Shown here piece by piece: positions 24,122 through 35,164 of a stretch of DNA of 64,000 nucleotides. The translations under genes were made by a program, and so were the position numbers. Position 1 is the stretch's first letter. Each line of letters starts with the position of its first letter. The stretch is from assembly GCA_015698285.1 (NCBI GenBank), contig CP048685.1, forward strand, positions 930,001 through 994,000, written 5' to 3'. The DNA comes from Candidatus Nitronauta litoralis (lineage in GTDB: Bacteria > Nitrospinota > Nitrospinia > Nitrospinales > Nitrospinaceae). The notes beneath the pieces were generated by a model that saw only the letters and a list, made by a program, of their open reading frames with translations, ran no database searches and was not told the origin of the DNA.

Positions 24122-24557
24122 AACGACGGCTGTTGAAAGAAATGAATAATCGGGTGAAAGGTATAATCTTCTAAATCACTATTTAACTTTTTTGATCAAT
24201 TTGTTTGTTTTAAGCGCTTCAACGCAAGATACCATCAATAGGGTTAAAAAATTCGGGTTTCCGCTGGGTTTCATAATTAAAATAGGACCACTAAATTTGA
24301 GAAGCAATTATAAATTTCAGAATTAATTCCGGTGTTTTTTGAAGCTGAAAACCCTCCCAAGGCCAACCATACCTAGCCCCTTGTTTCACAAAGGGATCCA
24401 TGCCCATCGCTGCCAGGAACCATCCCTTTAAGTATTTGAAATTTATTGATTTAGATGTATTATAGAGGACTTACGGGTAACCGTTAACTCAAAAAAAATG
24501 GGCTGCCTTATTGCCCAAAAAAATGAAATTTTATTGCCAAGGTCCAGGACACCTTAT
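24122..24557. other. Intergenic region between divergent kinase and pilB genes
   Basis: This spacer of about 436 bases must hold promoters for both divergent transcripts. The pilB side has a convincing sigma-70 box at 24436-24463. An in-frame ATG at 24498 exists but has no ribosome site. No other gene or RNA is evident. Confidence 0.6.
24436..24463 (+). promoter_or_regulatory. Candidate sigma-70 promoter of the pilus cluster
   Basis: TTGAAA (five of six consensus bases), a 16-base spacer and TATTAT (five of six) make a good housekeeping promoter. Its predicted start is near 24470, about 88 bases before the pilB start codon. Confidence 0.55.
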
Positions 24558-26270
24558 ATGGCCATTCGGGAAAAATTAAAACTGGGTGACGTTCTCATCA
24601 AAGCGGGAGCCATCACTGAAAAGCAATTGATGGAAGCGCTTTCAGAGCAAAAGAAAACCGGGATCCAACTGGGAAAAATTCTGCTCCAGAAACGTTACCT
24701 GACCGAAGATGAATTGTTGGAAAGTTTGTCAAAACAGCTGGGAGTCCCCATTGTCGACCTGCAAGACGTGAATGCAGGACAGGATGCGTTGAGCAAAGTA
24801 AAAGAGAATGTTGCCCGTCGACATAAGGTGTTACCGATTGCAATTAAAAATGGACGGTTGCAACTTGCCATGGCCAACCCACTGAACTTGTTTGCGATTG
24901 ACCAAGTCACCATCCAGGCCGGTATGGAAGTCGACGTGATGATCACGTCGGAGGCGGATATTGATAAAGGCATCCAGGAATATTACGGGGTCGCGGCCTC
25001 CATTCAAGCCGCCGTGAAAAGTCTGGGACTAGCCGACATGAGACGGGAACAGGCAAAGGCCGCCGTTAAAGCGGGTCCCACCACTTTACCCGGGCAGGAT
25101 GCCGAAGCCCCGGTCGCGCGCCTGGTTGAAGTGATCATTCGACAGGCTCTGGACGATAATGCGAGTGATATCCATATTGAACCCGGTGAGAATGCTTTGC
25201 GCATCCGATATCGCATTGACGGTGTTCTCTTTGAAGCGACCAATCCGCCAAAAAGTGTTGAGTCCGCCTTGATCTCACGCGTGAAGGTCATGGCCAATAT
25301 GGATATTGCCGAAACCCGGGCCCCGCAGGACGGTGGTTTTTCAATGAAGGTCGGCGGCAAGGAAATCGAGATGAGAGTCTCCGCCTGCCCGACTATCTGG
25401 GGTGAAAATGTAGTCCTGCGTATACTCGATCGCAGTAAACTTTTACTTCAGCTGGATGATCTTGGGTTGGTGAACCGGGGTCGCGAAAAATTCCAGGCTA
25501 TGCTGAAAAACCCATTCGGGGTCATCCTGGTCACAGGACCAACCGGTAGCGGCAAAACCACAACACTTTACGCAGCGTTGACCCAACTCAATAAACCAAA
25601 CGTTAACATCAAAACCATTGAAGACCCGGTGGAATACCGTCTCGATGGTATTCGTCAGACTCAGGTCAACCCCAAGGCCAATATCACCTTTGCTACAGGA
25701 CTACGGTCCCTGATGCGCCAGGATCCGGACATCATGATGGTCGGTGAAATCCGGGATCAGGAAACTTCCGAAATTGCAATTCAGGCCGCACTAACGGGTC
25801 ATCTTGTGTTCAGTACCCTGCACACCAATGATGCCCCGGGAGCCTTGTCGCGCCTTGGGGATCTTGGGATCGAACCTTTTCTCCTGGCTTCTTCCCTCAC
25901 CGGTGTACTGGCGCAAAGGCTGGTCCGGAAAATTTGCAAACATTGCAAGGAAAGTTATGAAGTCAGCCCGGAAGACCTGCCTCGCCTGAATTTGGATGCA
26001 CCTCCTGAGAAACCATTGATTCTTTATAGAGGACAAGGCTGTCGGGCTTGTCGAAAAAGTGGATACAGTGGCCGTATTGGAATTTTTGAAGTTCTGCAGG
26101 TAACGGATGCAATGCGGGAATTGATTCTGGAAAAAGCACCGCCAATGAAAATAAGGGAAAAGGCAATTGAGACACAACAGATGGAAACCCTGAGAGATGA
26201 CGGATTGAGCAAAGTCCTTTCCGGAATCACCACACTGGAAGAACTCGACCGGGTAACCTTTATTGATTGA
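24558..26270 (+). CDS. pilB: Type IV pilus assembly / type II secretion ATPase PilB/GspE
   Basis: PilB is a hexameric cytoplasmic ATPase that drives pilus extension. The start at 24558 has AGGA 9 bases upstream and gives 570 residues. An upstream ATG at 24498 has no such signal. The order is an N-terminal MshEN/GSPII_E_N domain (GDVLIKAGAIT onward), Walker A GPTGSGKTT near residue 329, the Asp box, the Walker B region DPDIMMVGEIRD, the His box STLHTNDAPGALSRL, and a tetracysteine zinc site (CKHC near 460, CRAC near 497). These mark PilB/GspE and not the retraction ATPase PilT. It opens the pilus cluster. Confidence 0.94.
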   Translation: MAIREKLKLGDVLIKAGAITEKQLMEALSEQKKTGIQLGKILLQKRYLTEDELLESLSKQLGVPIVDLQDVNAGQDALSKVKENVARRHKVLPIAIKNGRLQLAMANPLNLFAIDQVTIQAGMEVDVMITSEADIDKGIQEYYGVAASIQAAVKSLGLADMRREQAKAAVKAGPTTLPGQDAEAPVARLVEVIIRQALDDNASDIHIEPGENALRIRYRIDGVLFEATNPPKSVESALISRVKVMANMDIAETRAPQDGGFSMKVGGKEIEMRVSACPTIWGENVVLRILDRSKLLLQLDDLGLVNRGREKFQAMLKNPFGVILVTGPTGSGKTTTLYAALTQLNKPNVNIKTIEDPVEYRLDGIRQTQVNPKANITFATGLRSLMRQDPDIMMVGEIRDQETSEIAIQAALTGHLVFSTLHTNDAPGALSRLGDLGIEPFLLASSLTGVLAQRLVRKICKHCKESYEVSPEDLPRLNLDAPPEKPLILYRGQGCRACRKSGYSGRIGIFEVLQVTDAMRELILEKAPPMKIREKAIETQQMETLRDDGLSKVLSGITTLEELDRVTFID

Positions 26271-26315: not shown

Positions 26316-27806
26316 ATGAAAAGCAAGCCAGAAACATACCGGAGTTGGATACGATTTCTCTTCACCAAGCGTCTTACCCCAAGTTTGCTGGTGATCCTGC
26401 CCGTGGTGTTTGGCCTCACTGCATTCGCCTCGGGATTTATAGCCCTCATTATCGTTGAACATTTTCTTGGAGGCAATGTTCCGACAAAAGCGGGGGTCGA
26501 CGAGGCCATGGGCTGGATACGAATTGAAGTTCTGGCTTTTTCTGTATTGGGTGTGGCCGCAGGAATTGGAGTCGCATACGCAATTTTAAAACCGTTAAAA
26601 CGAATGATTAGAGAAACAAGGGAAGCAGCAAAAGGCGATTGGGAAAACCCTTCCGGGGATATCCCTGGTCTGGAAGACCTGGGGGACGTTGGGAATGAGT
26701 TTCGAATGGCACTTTCTTCATTGAGGCAAAATCTGGTCGACAGTATGGCCTGGGGCTGGGTGTTGATGGCAAAATCAGGACGCATTGCTTCACTTAATCC
26801 TGGTGCGGAATTAATCCTGGGTTTGAAAGCCAATGAATTCATTGGCAAACCTTTTGAAGCTCTTTCCAAGTCTGTGCAAATGGAGGAGGATTTAATCCCT
26901 CTGGTTTCCCGCACCCTTAAAGGTCAACCGGTTTCTGTAGGCCGGAAACTGAACATTGTCACTTCTGATGGTCGGCCGGTAACGCTTTCATTCACCACCA
27001 CCCTGCTCAAAGACCTCAACGAAGAAACCCTTGGGGTGGCGATCACTTTCAAGGACCTGACCCGCTCTCAGGAAATCTCCGATCAAATGCAACGGACGGA
27101 TAAGCTGGCGGCAATGGGAACCCTCGCGGCCTGCATGGCGCATGAAGTTCGAAATCCACTCGGGGCCATCAAGGGTCTGGCTCAATTGCTCGACGAGGCT
27201 TTTCCAGATGGTGCATCGGAGCGTACCTACACACAAACCATGATTAAAGAGATCGACCGGTTAAATGGAGTGGTGACGCATCTTCTGGATTTTGCCCAAA
27301 CTGATTCAGCTCAGACCGGCCCCTGCTCAATCCGGGATTTGGTAGCCCAGGCGGTGACCCTTGCCAACTTAAATTCAAAAAACAAATCGGTGACCCTGCA
27401 GCAAAATATTGGGAACGAGTTGCCAGCAATCCAGTGTGAAAAACGGCAACTGGTGCAAGTCCTCCTCAACCTGCTGCAAAACGCTGCGCAGGCTGTTGAT
27501 GAATCCGGCAGAATAGTGGTCAGTGCAGAAAATATTTCGGAAGAAGATTCTCATCATGTTCTGTTGCGCGTGTCCAATAGTGGACCTCCTCTTGAGCCCG
27601 AAATCAAATCACGTATTTTTGACCCGTTCTTCACCACAAAAAAAGACGGAACCGGGTTGGGTCTGGCCATTACCAATCAAATAGTAAATGCCCATAAGGG
27701 CCGACTGTATTTGGAAAGCAACAATGGAATGAACTCATTTTGTGTGGAACTTCCGGTGACCTCCAATGTGTCTGTATCGGATGTCTCCCTGACTCCATCC
27801 ACCTGA
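26316..27806 (+). CDS. PilS/NtrB-like sensor histidine kinase
   Basis: The 496-residue protein has two membrane helices (about 25-55 and 70-92) enclosing a short periplasmic loop, a HAMP-like linker, a PAS domain (about 140-255), HisKA with the phospho-acceptor in MAHEVRNPLGAIKG near residue 275, and HATPase with NLLQNAAQAV, DPFFTTKKDGTGLGLAI. The HEVRNPL box is typical of NtrB-class kinases that partner sigma-54 activators, and the next gene is such an activator, 16 bases on. With pilB before it and pilC after it, a PilS-like role is likely. Unlike Pseudomonas PilS it has two rather than six membrane helices. Confidence 0.9.
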   Translation: MKSKPETYRSWIRFLFTKRLTPSLLVILPVVFGLTAFASGFIALIIVEHFLGGNVPTKAGVDEAMGWIRIEVLAFSVLGVAAGIGVAYAILKPLKRMIRETREAAKGDWENPSGDIPGLEDLGDVGNEFRMALSSLRQNLVDSMAWGWVLMAKSGRIASLNPGAELILGLKANEFIGKPFEALSKSVQMEEDLIPLVSRTLKGQPVSVGRKLNIVTSDGRPVTLSFTTTLLKDLNEETLGVAITFKDLTRSQEISDQMQRTDKLAAMGTLAACMAHEVRNPLGAIKGLAQLLDEAFPDGASERTYTQTMIKEIDRLNGVVTHLLDFAQTDSAQTGPCSIRDLVAQAVTLANLNSKNKSVTLQQNIGNELPAIQCEKRQLVQVLLNLLQNAAQAVDESGRIVVSAENISEEDSHHVLLRVSNSGPPLEPEIKSRIFDPFFTTKKDGTGLGLAITNQIVNAHKGRLYLESNNGMNSFCVELPVTSNVSVSDVSLTPST

Positions 27807-27822
27807 CGAAACGTGACCGGCA

Positions 27823-29202
27823 ATGGCATCACCACGAATCCTGATAGTAGACGACGAGGACAGCATGCGTTTTTTCCTGTCGGAAGCGATGAAAAAAGAA
27901 GGTTATTCCTTTGGAACCGCTGCCAGTGGAGAGGAAGCGCTCGAACTTTTAAACGAACCCGGTTGGGGCGTGGCCCTTGTGGATTACAACATGCCGGGGA
28001 TGAATGGACTCGAAACTTTTCGAAAGGTCCGTGAAAAGTGCCGGGACATTGTGGTGATCCTGATGACTGCATTTTCAACTCGTGAACTGGCTATGAATGC
28101 AATTGAAGAAGGCGTATTCGATTTCTTTTCGAAACCTTTTGAAATTTCCGAGATGCGTATGGTGATCCGGCGTGCGGTAGAGCGATGGCAGTTACAGGCT
28201 GAAATACTCGATCTTAAAAGTGACCTTGGTGAAAAAGCCAAAGCAGAAACCATTCTCGGAAATAGCCAGTCGATTCTGGAGATAAACGAGCGAATTCAAA
28301 AAGTATCCTCCAGCGCTGTATCGGTTTTAATTCTGGGTGAGTCTGGGACTGGCAAAGAACTGATAGCGCACGCCATCCACGCCAATAGCTCCGTAAAAAA
28401 AGGACCGTTTGTGAAAGTCAATTGTGCAGCCGTGCCCCATGACCTGCTTGAAGCTGAGTTTTTCGGTCATGAAAAAGGAGCGTTCACGGGTGCTCATAAA
28501 ATGAAGCGAGGCAAGTTCGAACTGGCGGAAGGCGGAACACTGTTTCTTGATGAAATCGGGGATATGCCTGCAACCACCCAGATGAAAATTTTGAGGGCTT
28601 TACAGGAACGTGAGATCGAACGGCTTGGAGGAGAGGAATCCATCAAGGTCGACACCCGGGTTATCGCAGCAACCAACAAGGATCTGCAGAGTGCAGTCGA
28701 CCAGGAAGAATTTCGTGCGGATTTATTCTATCGGTTAAACGTGGTTTCCTTCCAGGTCCCTCCACTTAGAGAGAGAAGGGAAGACATCCCATTACTGGTT
28801 CAACATTTTCTTGAACTTTACAATGAAAAGTTTGGCAAACAGATCAAAAAGATTTCTGATAAGGGCATGGCCCTTTTGGGCGATTATTCCTGGCCGGGAA
28901 ATATTCGCGAATTGGAAAACGTAATACAGCGGGGAATGGTGCTTTCTTACGACGATGTGTTGACCGACCAGAACCTGCTCGAAGTTTATCCAGCTCTGGG
29001 CGAAAAAGCCAAAACCGAAGTCAGAGGAAAAAGCGCCAAACTACAGGATGCCCTGGATGACTTGATCTCGGTGGAAGAAAAAAAACTGATCCATGAAGCA
29101 TTGGTCCAGGAAAAATGGAAGCGACAGGAAACGGCAGACCGGCTGGGTATCAGTCGAAAAAGCCTGCATAATAAAATGAAAAAATACGGTCTCATGAACT
29201 GA
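27823..29202 (+). CDS. Sigma-54 response regulator, PilR-like
   Basis: The 459-residue protein is an NtrC-family enhancer-binding activator: a receiver domain with acidic pocket VDDED and phospho-acceptor Asp54 (ALVDYNMPG), an AAA+ domain with Walker A GESGTGKE near 172, the sigma-54 contact loop GAFTGA near 219, Walker B LFLDEIGD and the arginine-finger region. The C-terminal Fis-type helix-turn-helix (TADRLGISRKSLHNKMKKYG) ends at about residue 457. It pairs with the preceding kinase. The pilin gene about 3 kb downstream has a GG-N10-GC promoter, so pilin control is the simplest role. Confidence 0.93.
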   Translation: MASPRILIVDDEDSMRFFLSEAMKKEGYSFGTAASGEEALELLNEPGWGVALVDYNMPGMNGLETFRKVREKCRDIVVILMTAFSTRELAMNAIEEGVFDFFSKPFEISEMRMVIRRAVERWQLQAEILDLKSDLGEKAKAETILGNSQSILEINERIQKVSSSAVSVLILGESGTGKELIAHAIHANSSVKKGPFVKVNCAAVPHDLLEAEFFGHEKGAFTGAHKMKRGKFELAEGGTLFLDEIGDMPATTQMKILRALQEREIERLGGEESIKVDTRVIAATNKDLQSAVDQEEFRADLFYRLNVVSFQVPPLRERREDIPLLVQHFLELYNEKFGKQIKKISDKGMALLGDYSWPGNIRELENVIQRGMVLSYDDVLTDQNLLEVYPALGEKAKTEVRGKSAKLQDALDDLISVEEKKLIHEALVQEKWKRQETADRLGISRKSLHNKMKKYGLMN

Positions 29203-29309: not shown

Positions 29310-30545
29310 ATGGCAAATTTTCAATACAAAGCACGGGACAAGATGGGAAGCCTGATTTCAGGTGAAATGGAGGCCTTGAGCCGGGAAATGGTCGGGCAGG
29401 AACTGGGACGACAAGGCCAGTTTCCCGTTTCCATCCAGGAAATCAAATCCCGACAAGGGGAAAGCAAAGGATTCAATATCAATGTTGATGAATTCTTTTC
29501 CAGAATCAAGATTGATGACATGGTCCTGTTCAGCCGTCAAATGGCCACCCTGTTCCGGGCCGGAATCCCCCTCATGGGAATACTCAGCGCGTTGAGTGAG
29601 CAAATTGAAAATCCAAAGTTCAAAAGGGTGCTTGAAGAAATGCACCGTGGAATTCAGGATGGTCTGGCGCTCTCTGAAGTGATGTCTCGCCATCCCACTG
29701 TGTTCTCGGAACTTTACGTCAGCATGATCCGCGCCGGTGAAGAAGGCGGAATCATGGATGAAATTTTGCAGCGCGTAGCCGATTTGCTGGAAAAACAGTC
29801 TCAGAATGAGGCCAAGGTAAGGTCTGCACTTCGCTACCCCAAATTCGTCCTGATGGCGATGGCCGCCGCTTTGGTTGTCCTGATGATTTACGTCGTACCT
29901 GTTTTTGTCAGAATATTTGAAAAGGTCAATCTTGAGCTGCCTCTGGCTACCCGGCTATTGATCAGTTTCAATAATTTTTTCCATAATTACTGGTATCTGG
30001 GGTTGGCTGGCCTGATTTTTGCTGTTTATTTGTTCAAGAACTATCTGGCCACTTCCCAGGGGCGGTACCAGTGGGACCGCATAAAACTGAAATTACCCCT
30101 TGTTGGCCCGATTGTCCTGCGGGCGGCCATGGCAAAATTTGCAAGAGTGTTCGGGAATCTGCAGCGCGCCGGGGTTCCCATTCTGGATGCCCTTATGGTG
30201 TCTTCCCGGGTAGTGGATAACGCCGTCATCGCGCAGGTGATTGAAAAACTAAGGGACAGTGTGCAGGAAGGCCTTGGACTTGCCGCACCCTTAAAATCCA
30301 GCGGATGGGTGCCAGTGATGGTTGTCCAGATGGTGGCTGCAGGTGAAGATTCCGGGCTGCTGGATGAAATGCTCGTCAAAGTGGCGGACTACTACGATGA
30401 AGAAGTGGAACGCGCCGTATCCAGCCTTTCATCAAGCATTGAGCCAATATTAATAGTGTGCATAGGGGGCATGGTGTTATTTGTCGCCCTGGCTATTTTC
30501 ATGCCGATGTGGGATATGTCACAGATGGCAAGGACAAGAGGATGA
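29310..30545 (+). CDS. pilC: Type IV pilus inner-membrane platform protein PilC/GspF
   Basis: The 411 residues match PilC: a short N-terminal segment beginning FQYKARDKMG, two T2SSF domains (about 70-195 and 275-395), each with the FSRQMATL-like or FARVFGNL-like start and AGVPI turn, and membrane helices near 175-200, 220-240 and 380-400. PilC sits on the cytoplasmic ATPase and moves pilin into the fibre. Its stop overlaps the next start as ATGA, so the following prepilin is co-translated. Confidence 0.94.
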   Translation: MANFQYKARDKMGSLISGEMEALSREMVGQELGRQGQFPVSIQEIKSRQGESKGFNINVDEFFSRIKIDDMVLFSRQMATLFRAGIPLMGILSALSEQIENPKFKRVLEEMHRGIQDGLALSEVMSRHPTVFSELYVSMIRAGEEGGIMDEILQRVADLLEKQSQNEAKVRSALRYPKFVLMAMAAALVVLMIYVVPVFVRIFEKVNLELPLATRLLISFNNFFHNYWYLGLAGLIFAVYLFKNYLATSQGRYQWDRIKLKLPLVGPIVLRAAMAKFARVFGNLQRAGVPILDALMVSSRVVDNAVIAQVIEKLRDSVQEGLGLAAPLKSSGWVPVMVVQMVAAGEDSGLLDEMLVKVADYYDEEVERAVSSLSSSIEPILIVCIGGMVLFVALAIFMPMWDMSQMARTRG

Positions 30546-31174
30546 TGACTCCAGACGAAAAAAGCAGTTCCGGAAAATCCCCAGCCTCACCGTTTTCTCT
30601 TTTAAGGGAAAGCGGCGGTTTCACTTATATCGAACTCATCATGGTCATTGTGATGATCGGATTCTTGTCCTCAATCATAGCCTTGAAATTTGTTGAGGTT
30701 GCGGAAACGACTGAGATCACAGCAGAGGGCGCAACCATTGACCTGCTGCGGTCCAATATGATCAACACGATTGGAGAACAATTGATCAATGGAAACGCAG
30801 CAACCTTTCCTATCAACCCGTTCGACAACCTGACCAAAATCCCGCAAGGCTATGATCGGTTTCGCACCACCAAACCTACAGGGGAACCTGCGGACGATGA
30901 TATCTGGGTATTTGTACGCGGCAATCAGGCCAATGCAGGCGGGCAGATCACACCACAGCAGGCGGGCACTACACTGCCCACATTCCGGGTCGACGGCTTT
31001 ATCTACCACCAGAGACGCGATTCCACTGTTGTGCGATGGGCTTATGATTCTTCTACCGGTGTCATCAGTAAACGGCTGATCGAAAAACCAAGTGACCTCA
31101 AACGACAACGCGATTTTAATGCACGGACGCGAGGCGAAACCACCAGAGATCAGGAACTACAAAAAACGCGATAG
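30542..31174 (+). CDS. Prepilin-like protein with N-terminal methylation motif
   Basis: From the ATG at 30542, overlapping the pilC stop, the product has 210 residues. A 26-residue hydrophilic leader ends in Gly-Gly, followed by FTYIELIMVIVMIGFLSS, which is the class III signal of pilins and pseudopilins with Glu at position 5. The mature part of about 184 residues is larger than a typical major pilin and ends in a charged Arg/Lys/Asp-rich tail. It is probably a minor pilin or pseudopilin. An upstream in-frame start at 30458 lies within pilC and is rejected. Confidence 0.85.
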   Translation: MMTPDEKSSSGKSPASPFSLLRESGGFTYIELIMVIVMIGFLSSIIALKFVEVAETTEITAEGATIDLLRSNMINTIGEQLINGNAATFPINPFDNLTKIPQGYDRFRTTKPTGEPADDDIWVFVRGNQANAGGQITPQQAGTTLPTFRVDGFIYHQRRDSTVVRWAYDSSTGVISKRLIEKPSDLKRQRDFNARTRGETTRDQELQKTR

Positions 31175-31286: not shown

Positions 31287-31904
31287 ATGGAAATCGCTTA
31301 CGAAGTGCTGATGGACACAGGTCAAATACTGGCGCTGGTACTGGTCAGTTTCGCACTCTGCATTTCAGCGATGATCCTGTTTAAACCCCGATGGGCGAAC
31401 GCCCTGAACCGGAAATTCAACACCCTCTACAACACCGATGATTCGATGGACAAGCTCAACAAGAGAGTGTCCACAACTGATGTTGTGTTGAAAAACCGGC
31501 TTTTAATCGGTTCCCTGTTCTTTGCCGGTTCGGCCTTTGTATTCTGGTACTCACTGGCAGAATTCGATCCGCAAAAGTTCATTGATTATGTGATCCAGCC
31601 GGAAACCCGGTCGGGGATCATTTTCAGTGAAATCGTGATGGAAAGCCTGCAATGGCTGTTCATTATCGTCAGCCTGATCGGGGTGGTAACGGCCATCACT
31701 ATTCTGTTCCAACCCGAGACTTTCAAAGCGTTCAGCGACAAGCTGGATCGAATGTTTTCAACAGACGAAACCGTAAAACAGCTGGAAGAACTGAATAGTT
31801 CACTCGACTCCTGGGTTATCCGGCATCATGTGCTGGTGGGCGGGCTGATGTTTGGGGGATCTATTTTCCTGATGGTGTTCTGTATACGCGAATTCATAGG
31901 GTAA
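31287..31904 (+). CDS. Internally duplicated four-helix membrane protein, unknown function
   Basis: The 205-residue protein consists of two copies of one unit of about 80 residues: membrane helix, ILF-(K/Q)P, a soluble loop with a TD-(D/E) turn and L-x-x-L, then a second helix with G-x-x-F-x-G-S-x-F ending in (A/R)EF. The first unit spans about residues 12-88 and the second about 124-205. Four membrane helices result, with both loops on the same side. I do not recognise a family. It lies between the prepilin and pilin genes on the same strand, so a pilus-related role is plausible but unproven. A GAGA-type ribosome site precedes the ATG. Confidence 0.8.
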   Translation: MEIAYEVLMDTGQILALVLVSFALCISAMILFKPRWANALNRKFNTLYNTDDSMDKLNKRVSTTDVVLKNRLLIGSLFFAGSAFVFWYSLAEFDPQKFIDYVIQPETRSGIIFSEIVMESLQWLFIIVSLIGVVTAITILFQPETFKAFSDKLDRMFSTDETVKQLEELNSSLDSWVIRHHVLVGGLMFGGSIFLMVFCIREFIG

Positions 31905-32223
31905 AAACGATGCCAATCAAACCAAACGCTTGCTGGAAATAAAAGAATTGAAAAAATTAGCGCGTTTATGGGATGGTCAGGGAACATAATGGGTAAGTGG
32001 TTACACATTTAATACGTGGGAATTCTTACCCGGAATTGAGGAATTTGGACAAATAAAAAATTTCCTTTGATAAATGCCAGTCAAAAGTGAATTTTTGTGA
32101 GAATGGAAAATGTAAATCAATACGGCATTGAAATTGCTTTTTTATTAAACAGTTGCACGGAGTTCAAGAGGACCTGCCTTTGGGTTCCGTGAAGAGACCC
32201 AAATAAACTTTCAGGAGGAAGCC
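31905..32223 (+). other. Intergenic control region upstream of the pilin gene
   Basis: These 319 bases contain a sigma-54 promoter candidate at 32123-32138. A 7-base inverted repeat (GGGTAAG at 31991-31997 and CTTACCC at 32025-32031) is centred about 113 bases upstream of it, where an enhancer-binding regulator could bind. The pilin ribosome site AGGAGGA ends 4 bases before the start codon. No ORF is evident. Confidence 0.55.
32123..32138 (+). promoter_or_regulatory. Sigma-54 promoter of the pilin gene
   Basis: CGGCATTGAAATTGCT matches the sigma-54 consensus in the -24 GGCA and -12 TTGCT elements, with exactly ten bases between GG and GC. Transcription would start near 32149, about 75 bases before the pilin start. 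Type IV pilin genes of several lineages are driven by sigma-54 with PilR, and a PilS/PilR-like pair lies in the same cluster. Confidence 0.65.
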
Positions 32224-32616
32224 ATGCTTCGCGGAAACAATAAAGAAAAGGGTTTTACACTCATTGAACTCATTCTGGTGATCGTCATTCTCGGCATCCT
32301 CACCGCAGTGGCCCTGCCACGTTTTGTTGATCTGGATGCCGATGCCCGTACCGCCCGGAATCAAGGCGCACTTGCTGCTATTCGTGGAGCCATCACCATG
32401 TTACATGGGAAATACCTCATTGATAATACCGCCAATGATTACACTGAACTTATAATTGTCAACAATACTGATATTCAGGGTGGTACCATGGGTCAAGCCG
32501 CAGGGTTACTTACGGTAACTTGGGAGGGGGAGACAACTGGTTATACTTATACCTACACGCCGAGATCAGGAAATGTTCCTGGAATTGCAGCTTGTTCAAC
32601 AACAGGTTGTAGCTAG
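32224..32616 (+). CDS. Major type IV pilin-like protein (prepilin)
   Basis: The 130-residue preprotein has a 10-residue basic leader ending in Gly, then FTLIELILVIVILGILTAVALPRF, a textbook class III signal with Glu5, so the mature pilin is about 120 residues. The LPRFVDLDADART segment resembles MshA-type pilins. The C-terminus has a Cys pair (Cys-x4-Cys) two residues from the end of the chain, likely a disulfide-bonded loop. A perfect AGGAGGA ribosome site and strong terminator indicate high expression as a separate unit. It is probably the structural subunit of the fibre made by the upstream PilB/PilC. Confidence 0.9.
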   Translation: MLRGNNKEKGFTLIELILVIVILGILTAVALPRFVDLDADARTARNQGALAAIRGAITMLHGKYLIDNTANDYTELIIVNNTDIQGGTMGQAAGLLTVTWEGETTGYTYTYTPRSGNVPGIAACSTTGCS

Positions 32617-32650: not shown

Positions 32651-35164
32651 ATGACAAGCACTCATACAAGCCCTGCCTTTAAAAGGCAGGGCTTTTTTTT
32701 TGGCATTCCCTTTAAAGAATGGCTTACAAGCCTGGTAATTTTCATTGTCCTTGCCGGGTTATATTTTCCCTATCTTATAAATGGAATCTACGCTCCATCC
32801 GGGGCGGATCTGGCAATATTTTTTATCCCTTTCAGGCAACTTTGGGTTGATTTAGTAACTCAAGGATTTTTTCCACTTTGGGATCCTTACACCTCTTCTG
32901 GAAATCCCATTTTTGCCACCCTGCAGGGGGCGGTGCTTTACCCTTTTAGCATCCTGTTTTTGTTCCTGGATTTTTTTTCCGCGTTTAACATTACGTTTGT
33001 TCTTCACTTCAGTCTTGCCGGATTTTTCATGTACTGGCTTTTAAGGGTCAGCCCCTGCAGTCGATTGGGAGCCGCCATCGGCGCGTTGGCTTTTATGTTT
33101 GGAGGCTATCTTTTTTCTTTGAAGTTTTATTTATCCACCCTCTTTCCCGTCGTATGGAGCCCCTTACTGATCCTTTTCTTTCTGGCCGGATTGAAAAAAA
33201 ATGACCGGAGGCTGATCCTGGGTGCCTCATTGGTTTCAATATTTATGATCTTTGCAGGGGGCGCTGAAACCTGCTATCAAATTTTTGCATGGCTAATTCT
33301 TTTTTCTCTTTTTCCTCGGATTATTTTTCCTGACCAGACTTTACCCGATTTAAAAAACCGACTAATTTCGCTTGGTATTTTTTTGGCCTTTTTCTTTGGA
33401 ATGTCTGCCATTCAATTTCTCCCAACTATGGAGCTTGTCCAAAATTCTATCCGATCAAAAGCATTTGATATAACTCTGGCTTCGAGTTGGAGTATACACA
33501 TGCAGGACTGGCTTCAATTTATCTTACTGGATCCATTTGGCTATATCGCCTTCCCCCGTTCCCCCGAGGAAGGACAGGCCTGGATGCAATCTCATTATGT
33601 TGGCCTCATTCCCCTGATACTATCAGGGTACTTTTTATTTAAAGGGAGAAGGTTATCTTTGGCATTTATTTTGATAGCATTGGTTTCCTGGTCTCTGGCT
33701 ATGGGCAAGGGATCCTTTGTTTACCAGTTTTTCTTTGAGGTCCTTCCTGGCTTTGATCGTTTCCGTTATCCAGTGAAATTTATTCTTCCGCTGATCCTGG
33801 TGTTATCTATTTCAGCAGCCTGGGGCTGGGACCGGTATTACACATCAAATCCTGATGACAAAAAAAAGGTGATGCTGTTGGGATTTTCGGCATTACTGAT
33901 GGTGTTGTTTGGATTAATTGATATTTTTAATATTTCAATCATTCAGTCGTTGGAAGCTAATGGATTTCAATTCCCTGCTTTCAATCAGCCAGTTATAAAT
34001 TTATCCAATATGCAACGACTGCTTGGGTTTTCTTCCCTGTTTGTCTTCTTTCTTTTTCTGATGATGAAACATCCGAAAAAGAAAAACCTGTGGGCTTGTT
34101 TTGCGGTTTTTATTTTTTTCCTCGACATCTTTTTCAGTAACTACGGAAAACAGGAAATCAACGCCACCAAAAATTTTGATATTGTTCCACCCGTTACGCG
34201 GTTTTTAATGAATGATCCAGGGTTGTTTCGTGTATTCGTAACTCTTGAAACCGAAGTGTTGAAAAAAAACGAAAAAGTGACCCGAAAAATTCGTGGTGTT
34301 GAGGTTCGAGGAAGGGTCTTGCCCGTAGAGTTCAGAGGGCAAAACCGGGTTCAACAATTAGATGGGTGGAATGTTATTCGGAAAAAGTCTTTGAGAAAAA
34401 TACTGAATCAAGTGGGCGCAGCACCATTGGAAAACAAATTGCCCTTACTCCGCATGGCCAATGTGAAATACATCGTGCATGGTACGCCCCTACCCTTAGA
34501 CAATCTTCCTCTGGCATTTGAAGAATCTCCAGAATACCGCCAAATGCTTGAAAAAAATGTAAAACACCCACCACCGCTGATGCGTGTTTATGAAAACCCC
34601 ATTCATCTCGGCCGTGCATTTCTTGCGGGGAACTGCCAGACTATTTCGGATGCCACGCAACTAAACAACGAATTATTAAACCCTGAGTGGGATCCGGAAA
34701 TATGGGTCTACCTGCCGGAGTCTCCGCCAGACCTGCCCTGCCTTTCACCCACTGCAACTGCTGTAAAAGGGGAAGGCACAGTAAAACTTATCGGGGCTGA
34801 AAAAACCATCACCGCTAAAAGTCCGGACCCTGTATCCTCGGATGGTTTCGCTCCCGGTGAGTACCGGTTTCTGGTCGATTCCGTACGCCAGCAATTCCTG
34901 GTATTGAGCGACAGTTATTACCCCGGTTGGGAAGCGTTTATCGATGACAGGCCGGTCACCATTTACCGTGCCAACCAGGCCTTCCGTGCCATCGTCATCC
35001 CCCCCGGCAAGCACGAGGTGGAGTTTCGCTATCGACCCAAAAGTTTCCTCTATGGGGCATGGATATCGGGAGTCAGCTTGATTGCGGGTGTGGCTTTCGT
35101 GTTTGTATCCACAAAGAGACGGCGCAAAGCAGGCATTAACATTGAAAATGAAAATCCGAACTAG
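32651..35164 (+). CDS. YfhO-family multi-pass membrane protein (glycosyltransferase-like)
   Basis: The 837 residues resemble the YfhO family: a first helix near residues 25-47, then PSGADLAIFFIPFRQ and PLWDPYTSSGNPI in the first extracytoplasmic loop, about twelve membrane helices over the first 490 residues, a soluble domain (about 500-800), and a final helix near 805-825. The D-P-Y and loop acidic residues are typical of GT-C glycosyltransferases using lipid-linked sugars. Bacillus YfhO is implicated in lipoteichoic-acid glycosylation. Position after the pilin gene suggests pilin or surface-glycan glycosylation. The ATG at 32651 has only a distant AAGG and precedes a terminator hairpin. Confidence 0.82.
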   Translation: MTSTHTSPAFKRQGFFFGIPFKEWLTSLVIFIVLAGLYFPYLINGIYAPSGADLAIFFIPFRQLWVDLVTQGFFPLWDPYTSSGNPIFATLQGAVLYPFSILFLFLDFFSAFNITFVLHFSLAGFFMYWLLRVSPCSRLGAAIGALAFMFGGYLFSLKFYLSTLFPVVWSPLLILFFLAGLKKNDRRLILGASLVSIFMIFAGGAETCYQIFAWLILFSLFPRIIFPDQTLPDLKNRLISLGIFLAFFFGMSAIQFLPTMELVQNSIRSKAFDITLASSWSIHMQDWLQFILLDPFGYIAFPRSPEEGQAWMQSHYVGLIPLILSGYFLFKGRRLSLAFILIALVSWSLAMGKGSFVYQFFFEVLPGFDRFRYPVKFILPLILVLSISAAWGWDRYYTSNPDDKKKVMLLGFSALLMVLFGLIDIFNISIIQSLEANGFQFPAFNQPVINLSNMQRLLGFSSLFVFFLFLMMKHPKKKNLWACFAVFIFFLDIFFSNYGKQEINATKNFDIVPPVTRFLMNDPGLFRVFVTLETEVLKKNEKVTRKIRGVEVRGRVLPVEFRGQNRVQQLDGWNVIRKKSLRKILNQVGAAPLENKLPLLRMANVKYIVHGTPLPLDNLPLAFEESPEYRQMLEKNVKHPPPLMRVYENPIHLGRAFLAGNCQTISDATQLNNELLNPEWDPEIWVYLPESPPDLPCLSPTATAVKGEGTVKLIGAEKTITAKSPDPVSSDGFAPGEYRFLVDSVRQQFLVLSDSYYPGWEAFIDDRPVTIYRANQAFRAIVIPPGKHEVEFRYRPKSFLYGAWISGVSLIAGVAFVFVSTKRRRKAGINIENENPN
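32669..32701 (+). terminator. Strong intrinsic terminator after the pilin gene
   Basis: AGCCCTGCCTTT and its perfect complement AAAGGCAGGGCT are followed by a run of nine T. This is one of the clearest terminators in the window, about 53 bases after the pilin stop. It overlaps codons 7-17 of the following membrane-protein gene, which has no alternative ATG, GTG or TTG start near its first helix. Confidence 0.93.

Follow-up and report, generated by a model that had tools for sequence, protein, structure and literature searches.

What does a small, internally duplicated membrane protein do between two pilin genes, and which of its neighbors does it serve? The question is raised by a 64,000-nucleotide stretch of the genome of Candidatus Nitronauta litoralis (assembly GCA_015698285.1, contig CP048685.1, positions 930,001 to 994,000; hereafter the window), in which a 205-residue protein (hereafter the target) is encoded inside a type IV pilus cluster. 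The genome is a single contig of 3.92 Mb, and the family Nitrospinaceae belongs to the order Nitrospinales of the phylum Nitrospinota (NCBI taxonomy). The reading favored here, at a probability of about one half, is that the target serves one type IV pilus as a lineage-specific accessory in the inner membrane, where it is dedicated to the long prepilin, whose gene lies directly upstream, as the holder or loader of that prepilin at the platform protein PilC. The case for membership of the pilus system is strong, and holding and loading would be the mechanism at those same even odds. The features on which the argument turns are as follows, in window coordinates.

31287..31904, + strand: target gene, ATG start, 205 amino acids; two tandem units, each a transmembrane (TM) segment, a polar amphipathic loop and a second TM segment; four predicted membrane helices
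31290..31562, + strand: repeat unit 1 (residues 2-92), from the half-profile alignment
31617..31892, + strand: repeat unit 2 (residues 111-202), from the half-profile alignment
30542..31174, + strand: long type IV prepilin, directly upstream of the target; 210 amino acids if the ATG at 30542 is the start
29310..30545, + strand: PilC/GspF-type platform protein (Pfam T2SSF, NCBIfam)

The flanks of the gene were read in all 18 genomes found to carry it, and absences of neighbors given below refer to the flank examined. In each of the 18 the prepilin gene lies directly upstream of the target (a contig edge truncates it in L025), and an orthologous PilC directly precedes the prepilin in all 17 loci that can be judged. 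Across 77 genomes of the phylum, a prepilin profile at 1e-8 matches 31, in 13 of which it covers the N-terminal common region only; the full-length prepilin family is present in every one of the 18 genomes with the target and in no other of the 77 (contig ends interrupt the gene in G020). The chance of two identical genome sets is 6e-18 assuming independent genomes, which they are not. Orthologous PilC (at least 52% identity) is found in 20 of the 77, namely the 18 and two more (G036, G066) whose contigs end inside pilC, and no other PilC-like protein listed at E 1e-40 exceeds 39% identity. The target and one pair of PilC and prepilin are inherited together or not at all. These two, PilC and the long prepilin, are its constant partners, since the second, shorter pilin follows in only 13 of the 18 loci, with a sigma-54-like site of its own in 10 of them.

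The tie to the pilus machine in the original prediction, made from the window's letters, is thereby borne out by one of the checks proposed with it, synteny with pilins in related genomes. The prediction's placing of the gene between the prepilin and pilin genes is right as to position and misleading as to partnership, the upstream neighbor being constant and the downstream one not. Its description of the target as a component of the pilus machine holds for the pilus linkage, whereas a part in the machine as opposed to a helper of the prepilin is unproven.

All 18 genomes belong to one order, in which they are spread over four families; among the 31 genomes of the phylum with a completeness of 90% or more and a contamination of 5% or less, 10 carry the target. 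There is one copy per genome (split over two contigs in G038), and members diverge down to 34% identity. Relaxing the phylum profile search to E 0.1 returned the same 18 and a weak match in G059 (E 0.0018), antisense to a longer open reading frame (ORF). Beyond the 18, no member was found at E 0.001 among 387 genomes of 305 genera, with up to eight candidates scored per genome; the phylum search covers 24 genera, hence at least 281 of the sampled genera lie outside the phylum. Distant relatives outside the phylum were sought in this sample only, and an exact-peptide-word scan of genome contigs detects close relatives only. As far as searched, the target family is restricted to one order. A sporadic distribution with no pilus linkage had been named as what would speak against a pilus role; presence is indeed patchy, but the linkage is all-or-none.

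The target was described from the outset as two copies of one membrane unit. The ORF is present, and aligning residues 6-93 with 115-203 gives a BLOSUM62 score of 121 against a shuffled maximum of 58 (three schemes, 2000 copies each). Searching with each half, a check that had been proposed, joins the two half profiles with a probability of 98.9% (E 2.9e-17, 91 columns; 17 relatives, of which the program used 16). Within single proteins, the half-to-half score lies above all 500 shuffles in 13 of 17 family members and is equalled by one or two of 500 in the other four (L029, L030, L033, L036). The match of the half profiles shows that the halves are homologous, that the internal duplication is real and that it predates the spread of the family. 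A 34-row half-unit profile, run against the 387 genomes with up to 12 candidates scored in each, matched every one of the 18 known genomes twice and gave three weak matches elsewhere (E 4e-4, 0.0065, 0.0099); no convincing single-unit ancestor from before the duplication was found.

The motifs on which the description relied are largely in place. Both copies contain ILF-K/Q-P (at 30 and 139), TD-D/E (50 and 159) and A/R-EF (91 and 201); the glycine motif had been given as G-x-x-F-x-G-S-x-F, which is one residue short and found as written in copy 2 only, the form common to both being G-x3-F-x-G-S-x-F (75 and 185). Across the family both copies keep P34/P143, G75/G185 and G81/G191 without exception and T50/T159 almost without, while S82 and the second copy's EF tail vary. 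Arg71 and His181, which occupy equivalent places preceding the second helix of each unit, are invariant in 17 of 17. Compared with a genus-mate of 84% identity, the rate of nonsynonymous change (dN) is 0.088 and that of synonymous change (dS) 1.90, the latter near saturation, a disparity that indicates purifying selection on the target.

Hydropathy peaks at about residues 13-31, 73-91, 124-142 and 181-199 mark four hydrophobic stretches. Two AlphaFold2 models, of the window protein and of a relative 44% identical, have nearly identical helix boundaries, with helices that include 2-32, 34-47/48, 71-92, 108-141, 143-156, 159-179 and 181-203; at moderate confidence both consist of helices only, with no strand of three or more residues. 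The models reach a predicted local distance difference test score (pLDDT) of 75-77 and a predicted template modeling score (pTM) of 0.43-0.44, values at which the secondary structure appears credible and the packing not reliable. Of the pseudo-twofold symmetry that had been anticipated, the models retain the repetition of the second unit at an offset of about 109 residues, and they say little dependable about how the units pack.

The positive-inside rule places loops rich in lysine and arginine on the cytoplasmic side of a membrane. Mean lysine plus arginine counts across the family are 0.1 in the N-terminal ten residues, 5.9 in loop 1, 2.1 in the middle segment and 4.7 in loop 2. An N-terminus nearly free of such residues, set against 5.9 and 4.7 in the loops, makes it most likely that the loops face the cytoplasm and the two termini the periplasm, in a protein that is probably located in the inner membrane, topology and location alike being predictions. 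Mean aspartate plus glutamate counts are 2.1 (N-terminus), 2.9 (middle segment), 5.0 (loop 1) and 6.5 (loop 2); loop 2 is therefore net acidic (6.5 against 4.7), which weakens the argument there.

Does the target belong to a known family? As predicted, no Pfam or NCBIfam model scores above its cut-off for the whole window protein. Scans of 17 members found no family common to more than four, and DUF202, COX6C, Mcm-like_N and other weak Pfam matches each occur in one or two of the 17 at E 0.1, and in the window protein none of them reaches its cut-off. Searching PDB with a sequence profile found nothing at E 10. Foldseek returned no PDB match at E 0.001 or better for the first model and nothing at E 0.001 in a viral library for the second, both weak negatives given the low pTM, and the best VIA-align comparison (Z 7.1, root-mean-square deviation 4.1, 75 residues) is not above background for helical models.

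One account describes TfpY, TfpX, TfpZ and FimB of Pseudomonas and other Pseudomonadota as small inner-membrane proteins encoded beside a pilin gene, in which three helices at the N-terminus precede mixed and antiparallel beta-sheets, and proposes that the TfpY/FimB group act as chaperones or adapters that prime assembly and do not enter the filament (PMC11841053). The target is similar in that its gene adjoins, and is co-inherited with, that of its cognate pilin, and differs in being internally duplicated and in its prediction of four hydrophobic helices and no strands. TfpY/FimB is the nearest functional counterpart; since placement and proposed role are common and the architecture is different, the target would at most work like these proteins and is not a member of their group. 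Like PilC/GspF, it is a predicted inner-membrane component of the pilus encoded in the same cluster, and the window PilC has two T2SSF stretches. Where PilC/GspF proteins have large helical bundles, however, the target has polar loops of about 38 residues, and T2SSF (PF00482) is not detected in the target at E 1 or in the 17 members at E 0.1 (207.8 bits in the neighboring PilC).

The rest of the cluster surrounds these genes as listed here.

24498..26270, + strand: PilB-type extension ATPase; N-terminal MshE-related cyclic di-GMP (c-di-GMP) motif NF053729, 63.7 bits (cut-off 38); TIGR02538, 641.6 (cut-off 675.65)
26316..27806, + strand: sensor histidine kinase, PilS-like by position only; best NCBIfam match AtoS, 310.1 bits (cut-off 646)
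27823..29202, + strand: NtrC-type sigma-54 response regulator, PilR-like by position only; best NCBIfam match AtoC, 504.3 bits (cut-off 714)
32123..32138, + strand: sigma-54-like promoter site 5' of the second pilin, score 17.0 of 19.5
32224..32616, + strand: second, shorter pilin of 130 amino acids (Pfam N_methyl)
32651..35164, + strand: YfhO-like membrane protein of 837 amino acids, possible pilin glycosyltransferase; Pfam YfhO, 44.7 bits; weak PgfM2 match far below cut-off

Among the NCBIfam matches listed for the kinase and the regulator, no equivalog cut-off is reached, and we take the PilS-like and PilR-like names from the gene order in other bacteria. The N-terminal helix of the long prepilin resembles the structures of Geobacter geopilin domain 1 and MshA; for the remainder, nothing scores above cut-off in Pfam, NCBIfam or structure-sequence searches. 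Its reading frame runs into the end of pilC: a start at the ATG of 30542 would overlap the pilC stop codon (30543-30545), and with a GTG start at 30458 the overlap would be longer. The c-di-GMP motif on PilB suggests control of this pilus by a second messenger. PilT copies and secretins are encoded elsewhere in the genome, so that missing parts of the machine could come from there; two more pilus-type loci, at 616-621 kb and 2554-2560 kb of the contig (G000:C1), carry PilT and PilC-like genes, the second also a secretin.

Around the constant pair the neighborhood varies. The kinase and regulator are absent between PilB and PilC in two target loci (L022, L028), and PilB is absent from the examined flank of two others (L035, L036); in L028 a kinase-like fragment lies beyond PilB and pilC is split in two pieces. 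The second pilin and then the YfhO-like gene follow the target in 13 of the 18 loci, with one gene between them in L035, and both are absent from the examined flank of L024, L025, L027, L031 and L032. In their place L024 and L025 have genes that we take to be three-Cys-motif partner-like, and L025 also encodes what is presumably a phage Gp37-like protein. At L029:3095-4708 a further neighbor matches an arabinosyltransferase model weakly, far below cut-off, possibly forming a pilin glycosylation island with the YfhO-like gene.

Transcription appears to divide the cluster in a comparable way. Candidate promoters were scored out of 19.5 against the sigma-54 consensus. A site 70-126 bases upstream of the second pilin scores at least 16 in 10 of 13 loci, as against 5.2% of 5000 random positions, and falls below 16 in L021 (15.5), L022 (13.5) and L034 (12.0). 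The target genes have no sigma-54-like site within 150 bases in any of 18 (top score 15), and extending the search to 350 bases upstream found one of 15.5, at -341 in L036. The second pilin thus looks like a separate sigma-54 unit. From the distribution of these sites and the NtrC-type regulator in most clusters, it is probably the regulated major pilin, and the target appears to group with the machine genes in transcription. In L021, the locus of a genus-mate (G002), a sigma-54-like site of 19.0 of 19.5 lies 59 bases 5' of pilC; upstream of the window pilC no site of 15.5 or more is listed.

How could such a protein serve the prepilin? In the favored reading it would be a pseudo-twofold holder in the membrane that takes up the newly inserted prepilin and shields its N-terminal helix; Arg71 and His181, which are predicted to lie where the membrane borders the cytoplasm, would perhaps meet Glu5 of the pilin. 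The target would present the prepilin to PilC and PilB, and this presentation would probably prime the assembly of a filament made up mostly of the second pilin, which would be regulated separately. The target is kept where neighbors are missing from their usual place, whether the kinase and regulator (two loci), the second pilin and YfhO-like gene (5 of 18) or PilB (two).

Several points weigh against this reading. Presence is patchy across the order, the interaction with prepilin or PilC is a proposal, and the unreliable packing of the models and the acidic loop 2 add their weight. The Glu5 contact is drawn from the invariance and position of Arg71 and His181. G013 has a second full-length prepilin (L040:8418-9092) with no target or other pilus gene of the cluster in the 19 kb examined, and in G046 two prepilins precede one target; given these exceptions, prepilin and target do not pair strictly one to one. 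Once PilB is controlled for, target distances correlate more closely with the distances of the response regulator (0.79) than with those of the prepilin (0.50), the YfhO-like protein (0.44) or PilC (0.18), values that come from 36-55 non-independent pairs and are not decisive.

The main rival holds that the target is a partner of platform and motor, binding PilC, and PilB through its cytoplasmic loops, and stabilizing or gating the motor with no specific prepilin contact. Orthologous PilC does co-occur with the target as strictly as the prepilin, the two conserved loops are predicted to lie on the working side of PilB, and the c-di-GMP motif means that the motor is probably regulated. However, two loci keep the target with no PilB in the examined flank, the directly adjacent and always shared gene is that of the prepilin, and a single target per genome compares with two to four PilC matches in 17 of the 18, the other PilC-like proteins having no target of their own; the motor partner is possible but clearly the less probable role. 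Doubtful too is the proposal that the target is an undescribed pseudo-twofold core part of the platform, a duplicated-hairpin clamp that would capture the prepilin by its buried glutamate and load it onto PilC, having arisen by gene-internal duplication in Nitrospinales. A helper in modification or regulation, aiding pilin glycosylation with the YfhO-like protein or passing a pilin-level signal to the sensor kinase, is unlikely. The YfhO-like and kinase genes neighbor the target in most loci, and target distances follow those of the response regulator, yet YfhO is not in the examined flank of 5 of the 18 loci (the rest of those genomes was not searched), in two there is neither kinase nor regulator between PilB and PilC (not searched for elsewhere), and the conserved target positions include no catalytic-looking set of residues.

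Two further explanations are very improbable. The target might be a distant F-type conjugative pilin, TraA (PF05513, NF010294), and hence a structural subunit instead of a helper. Its second unit shows a local resemblance to TraA that is clear in the window's genus: NF010294 matches the target at E 7.3e-8 (32.6 bits), the C-terminal half alone scores 23.3 bits against Pfam TraA (cut-off 22.6), of the 20 plasmid tblastn matches listed, out of 423 records, 19 fall on traA (E 0.02-0.2 in those 20), and a profile comparison gives 43% identity over 51 columns at E 0.0032. TraA nevertheless belongs to a different system, and the whole target is below both cut-offs (22.0 against 22.6 bits for Pfam, 32.6 against 150 for NF010294). 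At E 0.1 the Pfam model matches three of 17 members and NF010294 four. The profile-profile probability is 10%, from a thin profile of four traA genes, three of them 92-97% identical to the first. Against one TraA, only three genus-mates beat all 500 shuffles, the other 14 members being equalled by 9-205 of 500. The matched stretch, on the TraA topology that we assume, spans the cleaved leader and first helix in the opposite orientation, which also counts against TraA. On these NCBIfam, Pfam, tblastn, profile-profile and shuffle tests, homology of the target family as a whole to TraA was rejected, the similarity exceeding shuffles only in the window's genus. The original prediction had also left room for an unrelated insertion, a cargo gene settled in the cluster by chance. 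Patchy presence, in 18 of 77 genomes, would suit it, but the idea is already contradicted by the unchanged place next to the prepilin in all 18 genomes, which represent four families and identities down to 34%, and by the target not being found wherever the full-length prepilin is not found.

How pilins exit the membrane into the filament at PilC is still poorly understood. According to one account, some pili need pilin-specific helpers whose mechanism is unclear (PMC11841053). The main text of two genomic Nitrospinota papers (PMC10839748, PMC8026999) does not contain the words pili, pilus, pilin or attachment, and in a literature search with most subscription papers outside its scope no paper on the target protein was noticed. 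The target would serve as a marker for one pilus system in nitrite oxidizers and their relatives. As an independent, simple and duplicated candidate helper, paired with one prepilin and one PilC, it would make the handover from prepilin to platform testable.
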